From the NCBI GenBank assembly GCA_003220495.1, contig QHSP01000023.1, positions 1 to 64,000 of the forward strand: a stretch of DNA of 64,000 nucleotides. Reading direction: 5' to 3'. The notes beneath the pieces are model-generated. The model did not search any database, was not told the origin of the DNA, and worked only from the letters and a program-made list of their open reading frames with translations. Made by a program: the position numbers and the translations under genes. Origin of the DNA: Candidatus Rokuibacteriota bacterium. Lineage in GTDB: Bacteria; Methylomirabilota; Methylomirabilia; Rokubacteriales; CSP1-6. Of the stretch, positions 6,072 through 58,792 are shown piece after piece (the stretch's first letter is position 1; every line of letters begins with the position of its first letter).

Positions 6072-6100
6072 AGAAATTTACGGAAATGAAATTTATTTCT
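6072..6100. promoter_or_regulatory. AT-rich repeat cluster, candidate SorC-family operator
   Basis: This 29-base segment is strikingly AT-rich against its surroundings. It contains GAAATTTA twice (6073-6080 and 6088-6095, period 15), GGAAAT between them, and an outer inverted repeat AGAAAT...ATTTCT. It lies just upstream of the fbp -35 box and just before the regulator start, where either divergent gene could be controlled. Confidence 0.4.
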
Positions 6101-16514: not shown

Positions 16515-17309
16515 TCAGCCTCGACCGGGCGCGCCGACGGGGTCGCTGGAGGTGATCGCTCCGGCGAGCACGCGCTTGAGCGAGCCGCCCACGTCGACGA
16601 GAAGGGCGCCGTCGCTATCGAGGTCGGCCGCGACGCCGGTGACGGTGTCGATCGTGACCCGCCGCCCGAGGGTGTCGCTGAGCCGCCGCCATCCCTCACG
16701 GATGGGACCGAAGCCCTCGCCCTCGAGGCGGGCCCGCCACGCGTCGAATTCCTCCAGCAAGACCGTGAGCATCGATTCTCGGCTGGGCGCGTGTCCAGTC
16801 TCGAGCGCGACCGAAGTGGCGTTCGCCGCCAGATCGGATGGGAACTCGCGCTGCCCGAGATTGATGCCGATACCGATGATCGTGACGAGCGTCGTGGGGC
16901 TGCTCTGCCCCGGACTGCCCGCTTCCCCCTTCCCTGTCGTGCGAGCTTCCAGCAGGATTCCCGCGATCTTGTTGCCCGCCACCAGGACGTCGTTCGGCCA
17001 CTTGAGCCGCGCATCCACCCGCGCGACGCGCCGAAGCGCCTCGGCGGTGGCGACTGCGGTCGCGAGCGACAACGTGGCCAGGAGCGCCTGAGGAAGCCGC
17101 GGCCGGACGATGATGGAGGCCAGGAGGCTTGTTCCGGCGGGAGCCCGCCAGGTTCGCCCCAGCCGGCCTCGGCCCGCCAGCTGCTGGTCGGCGACGACCA
17201 CCGTGCGATCGGCGGCGCCACGCTCGGCGAGCGCGAAGGCGACCGACTGGGTCGAGTCGACGGTGCCGAGGCGGACGATGACGCCCGACGTGCTACCGCC
17301 CGGCGTCAT
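16515..17309 (-). CDS. birA: biotin--[acetyl-CoA-carboxylase] ligase, class I without HTH
   Basis: Activates biotin to biotinyl-5'-AMP and attaches it to the biotin carboxyl carrier protein. The 264-aa protein has the substrate loop GRGRLGRTWRAPAGTSLLAS and the KWPNDVLVAGNKIAGIL motif, then the C-terminal SH3-like domain. It lacks the N-terminal helix-turn-helix of E. coli BirA, so it should be an enzyme only and not a repressor. The ATG overlaps the end of valS by 17 bases, so the genes are probably coupled. Confidence 0.93.
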   Translation of the reverse strand: MTPGGSTSGVIVRLGTVDSTQSVAFALAERGAADRTVVVADQQLAGRGRLGRTWRAPAGTSLLASIIVRPRLPQALLATLSLATAVATAEALRRVARVDARLKWPNDVLVAGNKIAGILLEARTTGKGEAGSPGQSSPTTLVTIIGIGINLGQREFPSDLAANATSVALETGHAPSRESMLTVLLEEFDAWRARLEGEGFGPIREGWRRLSDTLGRRVTIDTVTGVAADLDSDGALLVDVGGSLKRVLAGAITSSDPVGAPGRG

Positions 17310-19944
17310 CGAACCAGCCGAGGCTCGCGACGAGCTTGGCGCGCACGGCTTCTTGCTCGACGAGACGCTCTCGCTCCTTCGCGACGATCTCGGCGGGCGC
17401 GCGCTCGGCGAAGTCCGGCTTCGCCAGCTTCGCCTTCGCGAACCCGATCCGCTCGTCGACCTTGGCGATCTCCTTCTCGATCCGCTGGCGCTCCGCCGCG
17501 GGGTCGACGATGCCGGCCAGCTCCACGTAGAGCTCCGAGCCGCCGATGACCGCCATGGCCGAGCTGCGCGGGCGCGTCGCCTTCGGATCGACGGTCAGCC
17601 GGACGCGCGCCAGCGAATCGATCAGCGCGCTGTTGGCGGTGAAGAGCTCCGCCGCGTCGGGTCCGGCACGGAGCGTCGCCCCGAGCGCGGCGCCGGGCGC
17701 GATCCGCATCTCGCCGCGGATGTTACGCACGGCGGTGACCAGGTCCATGATCGCCGTCATCTGTCGCTCCGCGTGCGGATTGCGATCCTTCTTCGTCGGC
17801 CGCGGATACGGCGCGAGCATGATCGAGTCGCCCTTGTGCGGCAGGCGCTGCCAGATCTCCTCGGTGATGAACGGCATGAACGGATGGAGCAGCCGGAGCG
17901 TCGCCTCGAGCACGCGCACGAGCGTGGCTTGCGTGCGCGCGCGCCGACCCGGGCTCTCCGCATGGTAGAGAGACAGCTTGGCCATCTCGAGGTACCAGTC
18001 GCAGAACTCGTGCCACAGGAACTGGTAGAGCGCCGACGCCGCATCGCTGAACCGATACCGCTTGAGCGCCGTCCGAGCGTCCGCGACGGCCGCCGCCAGC
18101 CGGCTCTCGATCCAGACGTCCGCGAGAGCCGGCGGCGTTTTCTTGGCGAGCGCCGGATCGAAACCGGCCAGATTCGAGAGGACCAGGCGCGAGGCGTTCC
18201 AGATCTTGTTGGCAAAGTTCCGGTAGCCCTCGATGCGCTCCTCGGAGATCCGGATGTCGCGCCCCTGCGCGAGCGCGGCGAGGGTGAAGCGGAACGCGTC
18301 GGTGCCGTACTTCTCCATGACCACGAGCGGATCCGCGACGTTGCCCTTCGACTTCGACATCTTCTGGCCTTCGGCATCGCGCACGATCGCGTGCAGGTAC
18401 ACGTCGCGGAAGGGCACGTCCTTCATGAAGTGGATCCCGAGCATCGCCATCCGCGCGACCCAGAAGAACAGGATGTCCGGTCCGGTGACGAGCACCGAGG
18501 TCGGATAGTAGGTGCGCAGGTCGGCGGTGTCGTCGGGCCAGCCGAGCGTGGAGAACGGCCAGAGGCCGGACGAGAACCACGTGTCGAGCGTGTCCGGGTC
18601 CTGCCGCAGCGGCCCTCCGCATTTCGGGCACGCCTGCAGGTCCTCCTTCGACACGTGCACGGAGCCGTCGGCGTCGCAGTACCACGCTGGGATGCGGTGA
18701 CCCCACCAGAGCTGACGCGAGATGCACCAGGGTCGGATGTTCTCCATCCAGTGGTAGTACGTCTTCGTCCAGTTGCGCGGGAGGATCGTGATCCGCCGCT
18801 CGCGCACCGCCTTGATCGCCGCCTCGGCCAGGGGCTTCACCTGCAGGTACCACTGCTTGGAGACCAGCGGCTCGACGACGGTCTTGCTGCGATAGCAGAT
18901 GCCGACCGCGTGGCGGTAGGGCTCGATCTTTTCGATCAGCCCGAGCGCCTTCATGTCCTCGACGATCCGCCGGCGGCACTCGAAGCGATCGAGCCCGGCG
19001 TAGCGGCCGGCTTCGGCCGTCATCTTTCCGTCGAAGCCGATGACGGTCTTGATCGGGAGGTTGTGGCGGCGCCCGATCTCGAAGTCGACAGGATCATGGC
19101 CCGGAGTCACCTTGATGACGCCGGTGCCGAACTTCGGATCGACCGCCTCGTCCGCGACCACCTTCACCGTGATCGTGCCGTCGACCGATGGCACCTCGAG
19201 CGTCTGGCCTACGAGGTGCCGGTACCGCTTGTCCTTCGGATGGACCGCCAGGCCGGTGTCGCCGAGCTTCGTCTCCGGCCGCACGGTACCGAGCGTGACC
19301 GGACCGTACTTGATGTAGACGAACTCGTCGTCGCGCTCCTCGCGCTCCACCTCGATGTCGGACAAAACCGTCTGGCACTTCGGGCACCAGTTGACGATGT
19401 AGTCGTCGCGGTAGATCAGCCCTTCTTCCCAGAGCCGCACGAACGATTCGCGCACCGCCCTCGAGAGCCCCGCGTCCATCGTGAAGCGCTCGCGCGACCA
19501 GTCGCACGAGGCCCCGAGTCGCCGGAGCTGCCGGACGATCTGGCCGCCGGACTCTTCCTTCCACTGCCACGCGCGCGCCAGGTACCTGTCGCGGCCGAGG
19601 TCTTCCTTTGTCTTGCCCTCGCCGGCGAGCATGCGCTCGAGGATCACGTGCACGGCGATCGATGCGTGGTCGATCCCGGGAAGCCAGAGCGTGTTGAAGC
19701 CGTCCATGCGCTTCATCCGCGTCAAGGTGTCTTGCAGGGTCATCGTCAGCGCGTGACCCCAGTGGAGCGACCCCGTGACGTTGGGCGGCGGCATCGAGAT
19801 CGAGTACGGCTTGCCCTTGGCGGCGGGATCCGCGCGGAAGTATCCGCGCTCCTCCCAGAGCGGATACCAGCGTTGCTCGACCGCCGCGGGATCGTACCGA
19901 TCCGGGATCTCGCCGGTCGGCGCGCTCGGCGTCGAAGCACTCAC
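17293..19944 (-). CDS. valS: valine--tRNA ligase
   Basis: Class I aminoacyl-tRNA synthetase charging tRNA-Val. The 883-aa protein has the HIGH motif (PPPNVTGSLHWGHA), the editing CP1 domain with TVRPETKLGDTGLAVHP, the zinc-like CPKC/CPKCGGPL segments, KMSKSKGN, the anticodon-binding domain (FCDWYLEMAKLSLY) and the C-terminal coiled coil (ERQRIEKEIAKVDERIGFAKAKL) typical of ValRS. The track ORF extends far upstream through unrelated DNA. The GTG at 19944 overlaps the stop of the preceding gene (GTGA) and gives the expected N terminus ending in YDPAAVEQRWYPLWEE. Confidence 0.96.
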   Translation of the reverse strand: MSASTPSAPTGEIPDRYDPAAVEQRWYPLWEERGYFRADPAAKGKPYSISMPPPNVTGSLHWGHALTMTLQDTLTRMKRMDGFNTLWLPGIDHASIAVHVILERMLAGEGKTKEDLGRDRYLARAWQWKEESGGQIVRQLRRLGASCDWSRERFTMDAGLSRAVRESFVRLWEEGLIYRDDYIVNWCPKCQTVLSDIEVEREERDDEFVYIKYGPVTLGTVRPETKLGDTGLAVHPKDKRYRHLVGQTLEVPSVDGTITVKVVADEAVDPKFGTGVIKVTPGHDPVDFEIGRRHNLPIKTVIGFDGKMTAEAGRYAGLDRFECRRRIVEDMKALGLIEKIEPYRHAVGICYRSKTVVEPLVSKQWYLQVKPLAEAAIKAVRERRITILPRNWTKTYYHWMENIRPWCISRQLWWGHRIPAWYCDADGSVHVSKEDLQACPKCGGPLRQDPDTLDTWFSSGLWPFSTLGWPDDTADLRTYYPTSVLVTGPDILFFWVARMAMLGIHFMKDVPFRDVYLHAIVRDAEGQKMSKSKGNVADPLVVMEKYGTDAFRFTLAALAQGRDIRISEERIEGYRNFANKIWNASRLVLSNLAGFDPALAKKTPPALADVWIESRLAAAVADARTALKRYRFSDAASALYQFLWHEFCDWYLEMAKLSLYHAESPGRRARTQATLVRVLEATLRLLHPFMPFITEEIWQRLPHKGDSIMLAPYPRPTKKDRNPHAERQMTAIMDLVTAVRNIRGEMRIAPGAALGATLRAGPDAAELFTANSALIDSLARVRLTVDPKATRPRSSAMAVIGGSELYVELAGIVDPAAERQRIEKEIAKVDERIGFAKAKLAKPDFAERAPAEIVAKERERLVEQEAVRAKLVASLGWFDDAGR

Positions 19945-21014
19945 GGGAGCACCGGCCCGGCGGCGACCAGGCGCCATCGCGTGCCGCCGCGCTGGAAGGT
20001 GAGCGCCCAGGGCGTGTGCTCCGCCGTCGCCGCCACCGAGACCGACTGGGGGTTGGTGGCGTTGTCGGCGGCGTCGCACGCGGCATCGGGCCGCAAGGTG
20101 GACGGCAGCCGACGACGGATCTGCGCGTCGGCCACGAGCTTCGCCAGGCTCGCCTCGTCCCCCGCCGCCAGCGCGTCGAAGAGCTGGGCCACCGTCGCTC
20201 TGAGCTCCCGGTGCCAGGCGTTGACCTCCCGCCCGGGTCGACGCACGAGCGTGCCGCTCTCGGGCGCGGCGCGGAACACCGCCTCGGCCTCGGTCTGTCC
20301 CTCGCACCCGGGTGTGTGGCCGGGATAGTCGGGCTCGTAGCGGACGCGGATCTCGCCGCCGCGCACCGAGTACCCGCGCACCATCAGCCCCTCGGGAAAC
20401 AGGTCGGTCGAGGACCAGACGACGCGGAGGTCGTCGCCGTGCTGGCGCACGACGTCGAGCCGGAGCGCGCGGATGCCCCGACCGGTGGTCGGTCCTTCCC
20501 ATGCGGCGACGAACTGGGCGGCGCCGCCGGGCGCCGAAGCCCACGGATACACGACGGGGCGACCGTCGCGCGAGAGCGTCGCCAGGAGCGCGGCTTCTCC
20601 GCCGAGTCGCCCGTACACGCGCACCGAGTTGACGCCGGGCACGTCGCTCATCTGGAAGGCGCCGACCATGAGGCGGCCGACGCGAACGACGTCCACCGCG
20701 GCGGCGCCCCAGGCCTCGCCGAACGCGTCGAGTCGATCCTGGAGGAAGCCGGTCGAGGCGTAGAAGCCGCCGGTCCCGAGGCTCTCGACGATCTCCTCGT
20801 CGAGGAGCGCGTACATCTCGCGATAGGCGTCGGGCGAACCGTCGGGCGCGCCGTGTCCGAGCGACCGAGCGCGCCCGAGCGTGCGGAACTGGTCGAGCCG
20901 ATCGACCGGGCCGGCCGCGTCCGGCCGGTCGGTCACGAGGGCGGCGGTGCCGAGCATCGCGAGGCCGGCGAGCAATTTCCGCGTCCTGCCACCAGTTAGC
21001 CGGCTCACGCGCAT
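19941..21014 (-). CDS. secreted protein of unknown function upstream of valS
   Basis: I do not recognise this family. The 357-aa product begins with a basic stretch and a hydrophobic segment (RKLLAGLAMLGTAALV), then Ala-Ala-Gly, consistent with a Sec signal peptide. The rest is soluble and rich in beta-strand-like alternation, with two Cys (GCEGQ and DAACDAAD) that could pair in the periplasm. It is coupled to valS by a GTGA overlap, though a functional link is not obvious. The track ORF starts 36 codons earlier; the ATG at 21014 keeps the signal peptide intact and lies only 16 bases from the divergent lptFG start. Confidence 0.7.
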   Translation of the reverse strand: MRVSRLTGGRTRKLLAGLAMLGTAALVTDRPDAAGPVDRLDQFRTLGRARSLGHGAPDGSPDAYREMYALLDEEIVESLGTGGFYASTGFLQDRLDAFGEAWGAAAVDVVRVGRLMVGAFQMSDVPGVNSVRVYGRLGGEAALLATLSRDGRPVVYPWASAPGGAAQFVAAWEGPTTGRGIRALRLDVVRQHGDDLRVVWSSTDLFPEGLMVRGYSVRGGEIRVRYEPDYPGHTPGCEGQTEAEAVFRAAPESGTLVRRPGREVNAWHRELRATVAQLFDALAAGDEASLAKLVADAQIRRRLPSTLRPDAACDAADNATNPQSVSVAATAEHTPWALTFQRGGTRWRLVAAGPVLP

Positions 21015-21030
21015 ATGGTACAACAGACTC

Positions 21031-23394
21031 GTGCGGTTCCCGGTCCTCGATCGGTACATCGCGCGCGAGCTGGTCTCGCCGTTCGCGTTCAGCTGCGCGT
21101 TGTTGACGTTCTTCCTGGTCATCGATCGGATCTACCACCTCACCGACCTCGTGATCACGAAGGGCGTCCCCTTCTATCTCGTGATGCAGCTGCTCGTGAT
21201 CATGCTGCCGTCGTTCCTGGCGCACACGCTCCCGATGGCGCTGCTGGTCGCGGTACTGCTCGCCGGCGGTCGGCTGGCGAGCGACCTGGAGATCGTCGCG
21301 TGCAAGGCGGCGGGCGTGAGCGCGCTGCGGTTGTTCCGTCCGGTCCTGGCGGCATCGCTGCTGATCACGGTGGTGACCGCGTGGCTGACGTTGATGGTGA
21401 ATCCGGCGGCGAACGGCGAGTTCCAGCGGCAGCTGTTCCGGATCGTGCAGGCCCGGGCGGCCAGTGGGCTGCAGGAGCGAGTGTTCAATTCGACGTTCGG
21501 CGACCTGACGATTTACGTGGAGGACGTGAGCGCCTCGCAGGTGGCCCTGCGCGGCCTCCTGGTGTCGGACGAGCGCGATCCCACGCTGTCGCGCATCATC
21601 TCCGCGCGGGAGGGCCGGCTGCTCACGGACGAGGCCAACCGACGCATCACGCTCCGCATGCTGAACGGCGCGGTCAACGAGGCCGATATCCTGCCGGTCG
21701 ACGTGCCGAAGGCGACGACGGTGGACGCGCCCTCGCCGACCGGCGGCGCGGCCGGCGCCTCGCGCTATCGCTACACGCTCTTCGACATCTACGACATGAG
21801 CCTGTCCGTCGATTCTCCGCTGAAGGGCGCGCCGCGGGTCGAGAAGCCCGAAAAGGATCTCTCCCTCCCGGATCTCGGGGCGAAAATCGCCGAGTATCGG
21901 AACGATCCACACAGCCGGGCGCCGTTCGAGATCGAGCGCCACAAGCGCTACGCGCTGCCGATCGCCGCGCTGGTCTTCGGGCTGGTGGCGTTTCCTCTGG
22001 CAATCCGCTCGCACCGCGGCGGCCGGAGCATCGCCCTGGTCGGCAGCCTGGCGATCCTGGTCACCTATTACCTGACGATGACGTCGCTCGAGGGCGCGGC
22101 GCTGCGCACCCGCATCCCCGCGGCCGTCGCGATCTGGTCGGCGAACGTGGTGTTCGGCGTCGTGGGGCTCGGGCTCCTGATCGCGACCGCGCGGGAGTGG
22201 CGGTGGCCGGCGATGCCGGCGGTGTGGCGCCTCCTGGAGGCGCTGCGGCGCGCGCTGCCCGGACGTCCGTCCTGGCGCCCCCGCCACCACCAGACGGGCG
22301 GGCCGCGCGACTCCACGCACATCATCGATCGGTACCTCGTGCGCGAGTACATCGCGTTCATGGGCATCGGGCTCGCGGTGGCGGCGGCCCTGTTCATCGT
22401 GATCGATCTGGTCAAGACCCTGGACAAATATCTCCGGGTGAAGCCGCCGCTGATCTACATCCTCGAGCACTTCGCCTACCGGCTACCGGCGGCGCTCCAC
22501 GACGGGCTTCCGGTCGTCATGCTCGTGGCGACGATCTTCCTGTTCCTCACCCTGAGCCGCTACCACGAGCTGACCGCGCTCAAGGCGGCGGGCGTGAGCC
22601 TGTACCGCGTCAGCGCGCCGGTGCTGGGGGTAGGGCTGCTGGTGGCGATCGGGGCCGGGCTCTTCCAGGAGCTGGCCTTGCCCGTGCTCAACGAGCGCGG
22701 AGACGAAGTGGACCGCGTGAAAATCCGAGGGCAGGCGCCGAAACACCTGCAGTCGCGCCAGCGGTTGTGGGTGCGGAGCGCGGACACGCGGTTCTACCGG
22801 GTCGAGCTCTTGAACCCGGGGACGAACGATCTCTACGGCGTGACGATCCTGGAGCTGGACCGGGAGTTTCGGCTGACCGGGCGGCTCGACGCGCGGCGGG
22901 CGCACTGGACGGCCGGGGGCTGGGAGCTGAGCGAAGGGGCGTACCGAGAAGTCGAGGCCGACGGCAAGGTCCAGACGGTGCCGTTCGGGTGGACGGCGCT
23001 CGATCTGAAGGAGGAGCTGGAAGACTTCTTGCGGATCCAGAAGCCCGTGAGCACGATGAGCTTCTGGGAGCTCCGGGATTACATCGGGCAGCTGGAGGCC
23101 GCGGGGTTCCAGATCCGGAAGTACCTGGTCGAGCTCTATTCGAAGCTGTCGTTTCCGCTCGTGAATCTGGTGATGGTGCTCGTGGCGATCCCGTTCGCGC
23201 TGCAGTCACCGCGCGGGGGACGCCTGTTCGGGATCGGCCTGGCGATCATGATCATGGCCGGCTACCTGGTGGTCCACTACGTGGCGCTGGCGTTCGCGCG
23301 CGCGGACCTGCTGCCGCCGCTGATCGCGGCGTGGACCGCCAACGTGATCTTCATGGGCCTCGGCGTCTCGCTCCTGCTGCGCGCCCGTACCTGA
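21031..23394 (+). CDS. lptFG: fused LptF-LptG LPS export permease
   Basis: Inner-membrane permease that, with LptB2 and LptC, extracts LPS and passes it to LptA. Normally two separate YjgP/YjgQ-family proteins are encoded. Here one uninterrupted 787-aa ORF contains both: LptF about 1-400 (VLDRYIARELVSPFAF, transmembrane helices, periplasmic domain, LPIAALVFGLVAFPLAI) and LptG about 431-787 (IIDRYLVREYIAFMG, again helices, periplasmic domain, FPLVNLVMVLVAIPFAL). A basic, proline-rich linker of about 30 residues joins them. Twelve helices are expected in total. The start is a GTG. lptA, lptB and lptC lie at 53-55 kb. Confidence 0.9.
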   Translation: MRFPVLDRYIARELVSPFAFSCALLTFFLVIDRIYHLTDLVITKGVPFYLVMQLLVIMLPSFLAHTLPMALLVAVLLAGGRLASDLEIVACKAAGVSALRLFRPVLAASLLITVVTAWLTLMVNPAANGEFQRQLFRIVQARAASGLQERVFNSTFGDLTIYVEDVSASQVALRGLLVSDERDPTLSRIISAREGRLLTDEANRRITLRMLNGAVNEADILPVDVPKATTVDAPSPTGGAAGASRYRYTLFDIYDMSLSVDSPLKGAPRVEKPEKDLSLPDLGAKIAEYRNDPHSRAPFEIERHKRYALPIAALVFGLVAFPLAIRSHRGGRSIALVGSLAILVTYYLTMTSLEGAALRTRIPAAVAIWSANVVFGVVGLGLLIATAREWRWPAMPAVWRLLEALRRALPGRPSWRPRHHQTGGPRDSTHIIDRYLVREYIAFMGIGLAVAAALFIVIDLVKTLDKYLRVKPPLIYILEHFAYRLPAALHDGLPVVMLVATIFLFLTLSRYHELTALKAAGVSLYRVSAPVLGVGLLVAIGAGLFQELALPVLNERGDEVDRVKIRGQAPKHLQSRQRLWVRSADTRFYRVELLNPGTNDLYGVTILELDREFRLTGRLDARRAHWTAGGWELSEGAYREVEADGKVQTVPFGWTALDLKEELEDFLRIQKPVSTMSFWELRDYIGQLEAAGFQIRKYLVELYSKLSFPLVNLVMVLVAIPFALQSPRGGRLFGIGLAIMIMAGYLVVHYVALAFARADLLPPLIAAWTANVIFMGLGVSLLLRART

Positions 23395-53386: not shown

Positions 53387-54109
53387 CTAGAGCGCGAACC
53401 GCTCGCCCAGGTAGATCTCCCGGGCCACGGGGTTGTGGGCGATCTCGGTGGCGGTGCCCGCCACCAGGATCTTGCCGTCGTAGAGGATGTACGCGCGGTC
53501 GGTGATCGCCAGGGTCTCCCGCACGTTGTGGTCGGTGATGAGGATGCCGATGCCGCGCTCGCGGAGCCGGCCGACGATCTCCTGGATGTCGCCGATCGCG
53601 ATCGGATCGATGCCGGTGAACGGCTCATCCAGCAGCAGGTACTGGGGCGAGGTCACGAGCGCGCGGGTGATCTCGAGCCGACGACGCTCACCCCCGGAGA
53701 GCGTGTAGGCCGGATACTGGGCCAGCGGTGTGAGATCCAGCTCGGCCAGGAGGTCGTGCGCCCGCTCGCGCCGCTCGTCGCGCGTCAGGTCGAGCGTCTC
53801 GAGAATCGCGAGGAGGTTTTCTTCGACCGTGAGCTTTCGGAACACCGACGACTCCTGCGGAAGATAGCCGACGCCCATCCGGCATCGCTGGTACATCGGG
53901 AGCGCTGTGATCTCCTGGCCTTCGAGGAAGATGCGGCCGCCGTCCGCGGGCAAGAGGCCGACCATCATGTAGAACGACGTCGTCTTCCCCGCGCCGTTCG
54001 GACCGAGCAGGCCGACGATCTCGCCGCGCTGGATGTCGAGCGAGACGGAGTCGACGACCTTCCGGGTCTTGAACCACTTCATCAACCCCTGCGCCACCAG
54101 GCCTTCCAT
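53387..54109 (-). CDS. lptB: LPS export ABC transporter ATPase
   Basis: Cytoplasmic ATPase that powers LPS extraction with LptF, LptG and LptC. The 240-aa protein has Walker [11 protein letters not shown]-loop YLPQESSVF, signature [11 protein letters not shown], Walker [12 protein letters not shown] and H-loop ITDHN. The Gln-Glu-Ser-Ser-Val-Phe-Arg segment is characteristic of LptB. The ATG at 54109 lies 2 bases after the lptA stop; the longer track ORF reads through lptA in another frame. Confidence 0.96.
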
Positions 54110-54111
54110 CG

Positions 54112-54720
54112 TCAGTTCTTGCAGACTTCGGCCGAGCGCCGAGGCGCCGGCTGGCCGTCTTGCTTGCTTTCGTTCTGGGAGTAGAAGATGCCCTTCACAC
54201 GCTCCTGCTTGCCGCCTTCCACGATCGTACGATCCTGCGCGACGTAGATCGTGATCGTGTCGCCGGACACGACGTTCTCGTCCTGCCAGACCCGCGCGTT
54301 GCCGATGAGCACCACCCGCTGATCGAGGTCGAAGTACTCCGCGCGCTGGGCCGTGCCGGTCCGGCAGTCCTTGGTGATGATGCGGACCGACCCGGTCGAG
54401 ACCGTTCTCAGGACCCGGTCGCCCTTCTCGTCCATGTAGACCTCGACGCGATCGGCGTACTGCACGGAGTTGTCCCGCCGCGCCACGACGTTGCCGCTGA
54501 AGATGACGAGGCTCGCCTTTCCGAATCGCTCCATCTTGTCCGCGTCCACGGTCAGCGGCAGCGCGCCGTCGGTCTTGGCGTCCTTCGCCTTCGGCGTGAG
54601 GGACGACGCGGGCGGCGGCTGGACGGCGGGGGCTGCCGAAGTCTTCGGCGCCGACTGGCCGCCCGACACCGCGGGCGCCAGCACGAGCAGCAGCGCGGCA
54701 AGCAGCGGCCGCCACGTCAC
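54112..54720 (-). CDS. lptA: periplasmic LPS transport protein
   Basis: Periplasmic bridge protein carrying LPS from LptC to LptD. The 202-aa product has a signal peptide ([20 protein letters not shown]), a Pro/Ala-rich spacer and the OstA beta-jellyroll ([29 protein letters not shown]-like strands, [17 protein letters not shown]). The start overlaps the lptC stop by 4 bases, and lptB follows after 2 bases. Confidence 0.9.
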
Positions 54721-55271
54721 CGGCGGTCCTCGGTGAAAACTGCGTGGACGCGTCCGCTCAAGGTCGTGTACTCCTCGGCCATTCGCACCTCGAGCGCCGA
54801 GCCGTCGGCGACTGCGCCCCCGCGCGAGAGCCGCACCGGCTCGTCCGTCCAGAGTCGCTTCTCGGAGCCCGTCCAGCGGAGGACGTTCGTTTCCAGGCGC
54901 ACGCCGTCGCTCGAGGTGAGCACGACGTTTTTCCGGATTTCCAGATTCTTCGTGGCCTGGAACAGGTCGCCTTCTTCGCCCACGATCGTCCAGGAGCGAT
55001 CGCGCTCGAACACGTCGACCGCGATCGCGCGGAGCGCCGTGCGCCCCTCGGCCTCGAAGATCAGGGCCTGCGCAGCCTTGAGCCTCCAGCGCACGCCGGC
55101 GGTCACCTCTTCGATCTGGGCTTCCTTGATCCGGAGGTCGGCGCTCGAGGCGACCGAGCCGGCCGTCTCGGTAGGCGGCATCCGGCTCTTCGCGATCAAG
55201 GTGCCGGCAACCGCCAGGACGAAGACGACGACCATTCCTAGAATCGCCGCCGCCGCGAATCGCGTTCTCAT
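54717..55271 (-). CDS. lptC: LPS export system protein LptC
   Basis: Bitopic inner-membrane protein of 184 aa that receives LPS from the permease. The N-terminal helix is [21 protein letters not shown], followed by a periplasmic beta-jellyroll ([34 protein letters not shown]). The track ORF starts 20 codons earlier; the ATG at 55271, with GGAG close upstream, puts the helix at the N terminus as in the family. It overlaps lptA by 4 bases. kdsC, often found just before it, is missing. Confidence 0.88.
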
Positions 55272-55368
55272 CACTCCATCGATTCTAAAGGGAAGTCGGA
55301 CCGGAGTGCAATTTCGATACCACGCTACCACAGACTCCGGGCTCGAAAAAGGGGAAACACCCTGAAAA

Positions 55369-56349
55369 CTATACGATCTTCGCCCTGAGTATGTCGTGCA
55401 GGTGGATCAGGCCGACGGGCCGACGGGCCTCGTCCACGATGACCAAGCTGGTTATTTGCCAGGTTTCCATCACCTCTAGTGCCTTGGAAGCCAGGTCCTC
55501 GGCGCGGATCGTTTTGGGCTCGGCGCTCGCCATCTGGCCCGCGGAGAGATCGTCGATGGATCGACCGGTCAGGTGGAGCCTCCGGAGGTCGCCGTCGGTG
55601 ATGACCCCGGCGAGCCGGCCGGCCCCGTCGATGACCGTGGTCATGCCCTTGCGTTTCTGTGTCATCTCGACGATGACCTCCCGGAGCGGTGTGCTCTCCG
55701 GGACCACGGGGACGGCGTCCCCGGTGAGCATGAGATCCGAGACGCGGAAGAGGGCGCGCCAGCCGAGCGAGCCGCGGGGGTGCAGCGCCGCGTAGTCCTC
55801 CGGGCGGAGCCCACGGAGCTCGAGGAGCGCCAGCGCCAGAGCATCGCCGACGGCCAGCGCGGCCGTGGTGCTCGACGTGGGCGCCAGATTCATCGGGCAC
55901 GCCTCTTCGGGTACGCTGACGTCGAGCACGACCTCGCACTGACGCGCCAGGGACGAGGTGGGATTGCCCGTCAGCAGCACGATGGGCACCCCCAGTCGCT
56001 TGAGCGGCGGAAGGATCGCCAGCACCTCGTCCGTCTCTCCGGAGTTCGACAGCGCCAGCACGACGTCGCCGCGCGCGACCATCCCGAGATCGCCGTGGAC
56101 CCCTTCGGCCGGATGGAGGAAGTGGGCGGGGGTTCCGGTCGAGGCGAGCGTCGCGGCGATCTTGCGGCCGATCAGCCCCGACTTGCCCATCCCGGTGACG
56201 ATCACTCGCCCGCTGCAGCCGCGCAGGAGCTCGACCGCGCGCTCGAAGCGCTCGTCGAGCCTGGGGATGAGCCCGAGGATCGCCTCGGCCTCGATGCGCA
56301 GCACCCGCTCGGCCAGGCGCCGGAGGTCCGGTTTCTTCTCTGCGCTCAC
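55369..56349 (-). CDS. kdsD: D-arabinose 5-phosphate isomerase
   Basis: Converts ribulose-5-P to arabinose-5-P, the first step of KDO synthesis. The 326-aa protein has an N-terminal SIS domain ([45 protein letters not shown]) and a C-terminal pair of CBS domains ([46 protein letters not shown]), the usual KdsD/KpsF layout. GTG start overlapping the kdsA stop (GTGA). Confidence 0.95.
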
Positions 56350-57188
56350 GAATGAGCCGCCGCGCCGATGGCGCCGAGCTGTCCCAGGAGTCGCGGCAGA
56401 TCGTCGATGCGCAGCATGTTCGGCCCATCCGAGAGCGAACGCCCGTCGGGCAAGGTGCGATCGGGATCCTCGTGCATCTCCATGAAGAGCGCGTCGACGC
56501 CGAACGCGACCGCGGCGCGCGCCAGCGCGGGCACGTACTCGCGCTCGCCGCCGGAGCGGTCTCCGGCTCCGCCGGGCAGCTGCACGGAGTGCGTCGCATC
56601 GAAGACGATCGGGTATCCGAAGGCACGCATGATGGCGAGACCGCGCATATCGACGACGAGATTATTGTAGCCGAAGCTCGTGCCCCGCTCGGTCAACAGA
56701 ATGGCCTCGTTGCCCTTCGAGAGGATCTTGTCGACGACGTTCTTCATGTCGCGGGGGGCCACGAACTGCCCCTTCTTGACGTTCACGGGCTTGCCCGTCG
56801 CCGCCGCCGCGAGGATCAGGTCGGTCTGGCGGCAGAGGAACGCCGGAATCTGGATCACGTCGAGAACCTCGGCGGCGGGATCCACCTCGCTGACCTGGTG
56901 GACGTCCGAGAGCACCGGAACGCGGAGCGTGTCACGCACCCTGCGGAGGATCCGGAGCCCTTCGACGAGCCCCGGCCCGCGGTAGCTGTTGACCGACGAG
57001 CGGTTCGCCTTGTCGTAGGACGATTTGTAGATGAACGGCACCCGACAGTCGGCCGCGATCGTGGCCAGACGCTCGGCGGTCATCAACGCGTGCCGCTCGT
57101 TCTCGATGGCGCAGGGGCCCCCGATGAGGACGAGCGGCCCGCCGCCGCCGATCGTGAGGGAGCCGACCGCGACCGCACGCGTGGTCAT
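56346..57188 (-). CDS. kdsA: 3-deoxy-8-phosphooctulonate synthase, metal-dependent type
   Basis: Condenses arabinose-5-P and phosphoenolpyruvate to KDO-8-phosphate. The 280-aa TIM barrel has [14 protein letters not shown], whose Cys marks the metal-requiring class II enzymes such as that of Aquifex. [27 protein letters not shown] and [15 protein letters not shown] follow. The ATG overlaps the pyrG stop (ATGA); CTP from PyrG is the cosubstrate for activating KDO later. Confidence 0.96.
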
Positions 57189-58792
57189 GGCGCGGCGTGC
57201 TCGAGCGCGGCCTTGACGAACCCGGCGAAGAGCGGATGCGGCTCCCACGGCCGCGAGCGGAACTCGGGATGGAACTGACCGGCGACGAAGTACGGATGCT
57301 CGGGGATCTCGATGATCTCGACCAGCTGCTTCTCGGCCCAGATCCCGGAGATGCGCAGGCCCGTCTTCTCGAGGCGCGGGAGATAGTCGTTGTTCACCTC
57401 GTACCGGTGGCGATGACGCTCCTGGATGATCCCCTGCCCGTAGAGCCGCGAGGCCAGGCTGCCCTCGCCCAGGACGATCGGATAGAGCCCCAGTCGCATC
57501 GTGCCGCCCTTGTCGGCGAGCCCGCGCTGCTCGGGAAGGAGGTCGATCACCAGATGCGGCGCCGACGAGTCGAACTCCGAGGAGCTCGCGCCGCGCAGAC
57601 CGCAGACGTTGCGGGCGTATTCGATGACCGCGCACTGCATGCCCAGGCAGATCCCGAGGTACGGCACGCGCTGCTCGCGCGCGTAGCGGACCGCCTCGAT
57701 CTTGCCCTGGATTCCCCGGTCGCCGAAGCCGCCGGGCACGAGGATGCCGTGGACGCCCGTGAACTGCGCCTCGGCGCCGTCGCGCTCGATGTGCTCGGCG
57801 TCGACCCACTGCACGTCCACGCGCGCCTCGTTGGCGATGCCGCCGTGGGCGAGCGCTTCCACGAGGCTCTTGTAGGAATCCTTCAGCTCGACGTACTTAC
57901 CGACCACCGCGATGCGCGTCTCGAGCAGCGGCGACTTCACCCGACGCACCACGGCCTCCCAGCGCGACAGGTCGATTCGCCTCGGCTCGAGGCCGAGGAG
58001 CTTCACGATGATCTCGTCGAGCCCCTCGCGGTGGAAGTTCAGCGGCACCTCGTAGATCGTCTCGACGTCCTTGGCGGTGATGACGGCCTCTTCCTCGACG
58101 TCGCAGAAGAGCGCGATCTTCGACTTGATGCCGGGCGGCAGATAGCGGTCCGTGCGACAGAGCAGGACGTCCGGCTGGATCCCGATCGCCCGCAGCTCCT
58201 TGACCGAGTGCTGCGTGGCCTTGGTCTTCAGCTCGGAGGCCGCCTGCATGTACGGCACGAGGGTCAGGTGCACGTAGATGACGTTCTCGCGTCCGACGTC
58301 CTTCCTGAACTGGCGGACGGCCTCCAGGAACGGGAGCCCCTCGATGTCGCCGACGGTGCCGCCGACCTCGACGATGACCACGTCGGTGTCGCGCGAGACC
58401 TTGCGGATGGACGCCTTGATCTCGTCGGTGATGTGGGGAATCACCTGGACGGTCCGTCCGAGGTAGTCCCCGCGGCGCTCCTTCTGGATGACCGAGTAGT
58501 AGACCTTGCCGGTCGTCACGTTGTGGTCGCGCGTCACCCGGCTCGAGGTGAACCGCTCGTAGTGGCCCAGATCCAGGTCGGTCTCGCCCCCGTCGTCGGT
58601 CACGAAGACCTCGCCGTGCTGGTAGGGGCTCATGGTCCCCGCGTCCACGTTGATGTACGGATCCATCTTCTGCAGCGTCACGCGGAAGCCGCGTGCCTCC
58701 AGCAGCGCGCCGATCGAGGCCGCCGCCAGACCCTTGCCAAGGGACGACACGACGCCGCCGGTCACGAAGATGTATTTCGGCGCCAAACTCAT
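57185..58792 (-). CDS. pyrG: CTP synthase
   Basis: Aminates UTP to CTP using glutamine and ATP. The 535-aa protein has the N-terminal synthetase domain ([45 protein letters not shown]) and a C-terminal glutamine amidotransferase domain ([17 protein letters not shown] with the nucleophile Cys, FHPEF). The ATG at 58792 overlaps the stop of the upstream gene (ATGA) and gives the standard N terminus. An in-frame ATG six codons earlier is possible but is not needed. Confidence 0.96.

Follow-up and report, generated by a model that had tools for sequence, protein, structure and literature searches.

How can one open reading frame encode both LptF and LptG, usually separate polypeptides of the LptB2FGC lipopolysaccharide (LPS) exporter, and is the resulting protein truly one chain? 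The question arises from the window (the whole 64,000-nucleotide stretch of DNA analyzed here), which belongs to the Rokubacteria, an uncultured bacterial lineage of soil and groundwater. The original prediction, that both halves lie in one 787-codon frame, was borne out: the frame runs uninterrupted on the forward strand from a GTG to a TGA at 23392-23394. The frame is also open 5' of this GTG (855 codons from stop to stop), for which no clear ribosome-binding site was seen. The gene is organized as follows:

21031-23394, forward strand: lptFG fusion gene, 787 codons plus TGA, with the GTG start at 21031 assigned by homology
21043-22188, forward strand: LptF half, residues ~5-386 (TIGR04407, PF03739, E. 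coli LptF alignment, model)
22192-22320, forward strand: basic cytoplasmic linker, residues 388-430, ~43 amino acids
22321-23391, forward strand: LptG half, residues 431-787 (TIGR04408, alignment, model)

Both halves are recognized by curated models. PF03739 (LptF_LptG) matches the window protein twice (513 bits), Pfam detecting no domain beyond the two halves, and the NCBIfam equivalog models tell them apart: TIGR04407 (LptF) matches the first half best (339 bits vs. a cut-off of 230) and TIGR04408 (LptG) the second (360 bits vs. 240). All PDB sequence matches (18/18) were LptF or LptG chains, or uncharacterized or permease-named chains of the same complexes. A coupling-helix glutamate is kept in each half (E87 in LptF, aligned with ESEITVMHACG of E. 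coli LptF, and E513 in LptG, aligned with the E. coli RSELV motif); both are invariant in 51 sequences, and presumably face LptB and take part in LptB coupling. An AF2 model (51 sequences; mean pLDDT 79) contains both transmembrane (TM) sets and both jellyrolls, with beta strands at residues 159-258 and 576-657, so that the LptF half, for example, comprises TM helices and a periplasmic beta-jellyroll. Its pTM is 0.64, and the relative placement of the halves is therefore not firm. The top Foldseek matches in the PDB were F and G chains of LptB2FG(C) (TMt 0.56-0.87 at E ≤ 0.001). Curated models and fold thus agree with the expectation that each half carries its own TM set and periplasmic domain. 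Some relatives have longer frames (up to 1388 codons), for which a fused LptB or extra domain was considered and rejected on the Pfam content of the window protein; these extend upstream of LptF, and we read the extensions as high-GC open frame.

The linker had been described as basic and 30 residues long; the charge holds (9 K/R vs. 3 D/E), but the length does not (~43 residues). Across 58 aligned fused sequences it spans 40-54 residues, differing by whole codons only, with a mean net charge of +7. Residues 395-408 are predicted to be helical and 410-427 disordered (pLDDT < 50 in the AF2 model), and conservation is seen at a W/R near 399-400 and at R-[DE]-S-T-H just before LptG TM1. The amphipathicity of the helix is weak (median shuffle p 0.13), and we do not claim membrane binding of the linker. 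Evolutionarily, pooled pN/pS ratios (Nei-Gojobori counts, 17 pairs) are 0.25 for LptF, 0.54 for the linker and 0.16 for LptG. By these counts, the linker is relaxed yet still evolving as coding sequence. Along with a loop in the LptF periplasmic domain, it is the least constrained stretch measured, and any specific role for it is therefore only putative.

Since the window comes from a metagenome-assembled genome (MAG), a sequencing or assembly error could in principle hide a stop between two separate genes, and isolated frame breaks do occur in three relatives (G013, G030, and G071). We searched 60 genomes of the window genome's order with the window protein, and the 56 in which the assembly crosses the junction all have its two sides in a single frame. 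These include one in which a contig edge falls shortly after the junction (G036) and the three with frame breaks, each of which lies inside one half and away from the junction; the four genomes without a junction are two with contig-end fragments (G035 and G022) and two that are incomplete and without match (G075 and G077). In the alignment of 58 fused sequences, almost all of them drawn from the assemblies of other species, the junction is crossed with neither a stop nor a change of frame, and a second copy in the window genome itself is likewise open. The nearest named relative of the window protein is on QHTE01000072.1, a Candidatus Rokuibacteriota MAG (95% protein identity). This order-wide conservation of the open junction across many assemblies rules out a sequencing error hiding a stop, and leaves next to no chance that the genes are separate. 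The survey of relatives suggested with the original prediction thus returned the fusion in every junction-spanning genome, and separate genes at the orthologous locus in none of them. Judged from these genomes, the fusion is real, ancient and conserved across the order.

An open frame could nonetheless yield two proteins in practice, if translation of LptG also began at an internal site close to the linker, or if the chain were cut within the linker. The window linker does hold two in-frame candidate starts, an ATG at residue 395 (22213) and a GTG at residue 398 (22222), and a basic, partly disordered stretch that evolves faster than either half would suit such a separation. However, none of the possible linker starts is conserved among the 58 sequences (the best, the ATG at residue 395, is found in 21/58), nor is there a conserved start at the LptG N-terminus (an ATG at residue 432 occurs in 3/58). 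In addition, the separate lptG of class relatives starts with an ATG immediately before a DRY motif, and this start has been lost across the order. Two proteins therefore seem unlikely to us, and the expected absence of a stop or restart between the halves stands, none being conserved at the junction.

If lptFG is translated as one chain, do its partners exist? The remaining genes of interest in the window are the following:

17293-19990, reverse strand: valS, a neighbor of the fused gene conserved across the order
19941-21014, reverse strand: conserved hypothetical ORF, divergent from lptFG, neighbor of the main copy in family f1
53387-54109, reverse strand: lptB, the genome's only LptB over the TIGR04406 cut-off
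54112-54720, reverse strand: lptA
54717-55331, reverse strand: lptC
55369-57191, reverse strand: SIS/CBS protein (kdsD-like) and DAHP-synthase-family protein (kdsA-like), upstream of lptC

The lptC-lptA-lptB cluster lies 30 kb from lptFG and adjoins rpoN, and its upstream genes give it a Kdo-pathway context, with kdsD and kdsA as putative paralogue-level names. With lptD elsewhere in the genome (contig C47), LptB, LptC, LptA and LptD are all present, so that the main lptFG is most likely, from gene content, the permease of a complete and otherwise ordinary Lpt pathway. Most of family f1 has valS and the conserved ORF next to the main copy, and families f2, f3 and f4 have valS there as well. 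This ORF has no Pfam match, a possible start ~16 nt from that of lptFG, and a homologue beside the main copy in most of the f1 loci read. The arrangement of valS followed by a divergent lptFG (window 17293-23394) resembles E. coli valS-holC-pepA-lptF-lptG, although the Rokubacterial loci showed neither pepA nor holC.

A second fused copy occurs in four species of the genus (G000, which is the window genome, G003, G006, and G007). In the window genome it lies on contig C11 (L056 3-2240, reverse strand, 746 codons to the contig edge) with its tail on C37 (L057 3-245, forward strand), the two contig ends sharing an exact 115-base overlap, and is 75% identical to the window copy. The second copies of all four species group as a single clade (support 96/91) next to the genus's nine main copies. 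In G000 and G006, genes for an oxidoreductase, a DegT aminotransferase and a GT4 glycosyltransferase precede the second lptFG on the same strand, while in G007 it adjoins a PMT-family glycosyltransferase (neighbors were identified by Pfam in G000 and G007, and by matching sequence in G006). Glycan or glycosyltransferase genes therefore lie beside the second copy in at least three of the four species, which suggests that it is a specialized permease and that the two copies may differ in substrate. It is tempting to speculate, if only tentatively, that the fused lptFG is a duplicable cassette, the second copy of which would use the shared LptB/LptC/LptA/LptD set to form a second, substrate-specialized exporter of modified LPS, with the tether blocking mispairing of LptF and LptG between paralogues.

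These same neighbors could be taken to mean that, rather than serving as the Lpt permease, the fused protein carries some glycolipid other than LPS, and our search of the open-licence literature returned no paper joining Rokubacteria, lipopolysaccharide and Lpt. We consider this very unlikely, as most genomes of the order encode no LptFG besides the main copy, each half of the window protein scores above its equivalog cut-off, and a full Lpt set with Kdo-pathway neighbors is present.

Beyond these copies, G003 carries a third, diverged fused lptFG (C588, L061 7598-9892; 44% identity, on a long branch); contamination of this genome is 9%. Two genomes encode distant LptF/LptG-type proteins (~32% identity) besides the fused gene (G021:C93 and G076:C125), which look like another permease subfamily; in G021, both genes of the pair are present and separate.

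Returning to the LPS permease, where did the fusion come from? Families of the class that fall outside the order keep lptF and lptG as two neighboring, co-oriented genes with a stop/start overlap or a short gap. The sister families (represented, for example, by G044, G045, G050, and G053) share the protein family, adjacency and gene order with the fused gene, and their LptF likewise ends in a cytoplasmic tail beyond TM6; unlike in the fused gene, a stop and a new ATG part the two. In G045 (C186, around base 6093) both genes are in the same frame and only a lone TAG, followed directly by the lptG ATG, separates them, a plausible pre-fusion state from which fusion needs only a small step. In the LptG tree, all fused sequences fall on one side of a branch (support 84/91); left unconstrained, the LptF tree calls for two changes, but a single fused clade is not rejected (p-AU 0.505). 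Because these trees are compatible with it and the gene neighbors agree, we infer one fusion event in the ancestor of the order.

A further long frame was seen in G048 (C275, 4397-6502, reverse strand), from a family with separate genes: relative to the otherwise 98% identical G054, ~166 bases are missing, a loss that takes away the lptF stop together with the lptG start and TM1, leaving a 702-codon frame. Either the assembly is wrong here or the fusion is recent and probably damaged.

Altogether, we consider it highly probable, from sequence and predicted fold, that lptFG encodes the permease of an LptB2FGC exporter that is ordinary in other respects, its lptF and lptG having been joined in the order's ancestor. 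Before that, the two genes would have overlapped or abutted, as in class relatives, and an in-frame loss of the lptF stop would have joined them. The single translated chain would then insert so that its two termini and the linker all face the cytoplasm, and its halves would fold back on each other into the usual pseudo-dimer, binding two LptB and one LptC; closure driven by ATP would squeeze LPS to LptC and LptA. Such a chain would fix the 1:1 ratio and the orientation of the two halves, which is a reasonable inference from the frame and was part of the original prediction.

The complex has two lateral gates, TM1F/TM5G and TM1G/TM5F, the latter being the putative LPS-entry site under control of the LptC helix (PMC11458178, PMC12738788). 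Since the fusion point connects LptF TM6, which would sit beside TM5, to LptG TM1, topology places the tether on the side of this entry gate. Spanning both sides of the gate, it may therefore serve, we propose, to ensure 1:1 supply and pairing in cis. The tether could also limit the opening of the gate, although, at 43 partly disordered residues, it probably has enough length to leave the gate unrestrained.

How does this permease compare with known systems? With the LptF and LptG of LptB2FGC (E. coli yjgP/yjgQ; PDB 5x5y, 6mit, 6mjp, 6s8g, and 9doh) it shares the TM and jellyroll architecture, the curated-model matches, the coupling-helix glutamates, and the presence of LptB, LptC, LptA and LptD. 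In contrast, the solved relatives that we found are two chains, whereas Rokubacterial LptF and LptG form one polypeptide, order-wide, with a 40-54 residue cytoplasmic linker; E. coli lptF and lptG overlap by one base yet stay separate. A separate-chain layout is outside the sequence definition of the LptF and LptG families, and its loss makes a variant. A single LptF/G homologue has been reported in Negativicutes and Halanaerobiales (PMC5007114). These also depart from the two-gene layout, but with one LptF/G-type protein, whereas the Rokubacterial protein keeps two distinct halves, joined.

Full-length ABC exporters carry both TM domains in one chain, and permease halves have often become covalently paired in evolution; unlike these exporters, the lptFG chain has no nucleotide-binding domain and LptB stays separate. 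The fusion repackages a well-known machine and creates no new one. No report of a natural LptFG fusion was found in open-licence papers, and it would not be surprising if two-domain PF03739 proteins were already catalogued in sequence databases. We describe the natural LptFG fusion as a new variant of a known exporter's permease.

LptF and LptG are not interchangeable, and a natural single-chain permease kept across an order suggests that the subunits need not exchange. The protein also offers a ready tethered construct for structural or single-molecule study of gate opening. Surveys of outer-membrane systems that expect one gene per orthologue may miss or mis-score fused genes.

Finally, lptFG may serve as a clean lineage marker. 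A scan of viral contigs returned no fused lptFG, and plasmid matches covering both halves were two separate genes where annotated. Searching contigs with the fused gene recovered seven labeled Rokuibacteriota and one labeled Actinobacteria. The latter (VAXU01000080.1, isolate AC_40) has part of the gene at 96% identity, and is probably a mis-binned Rokubacterial contig.
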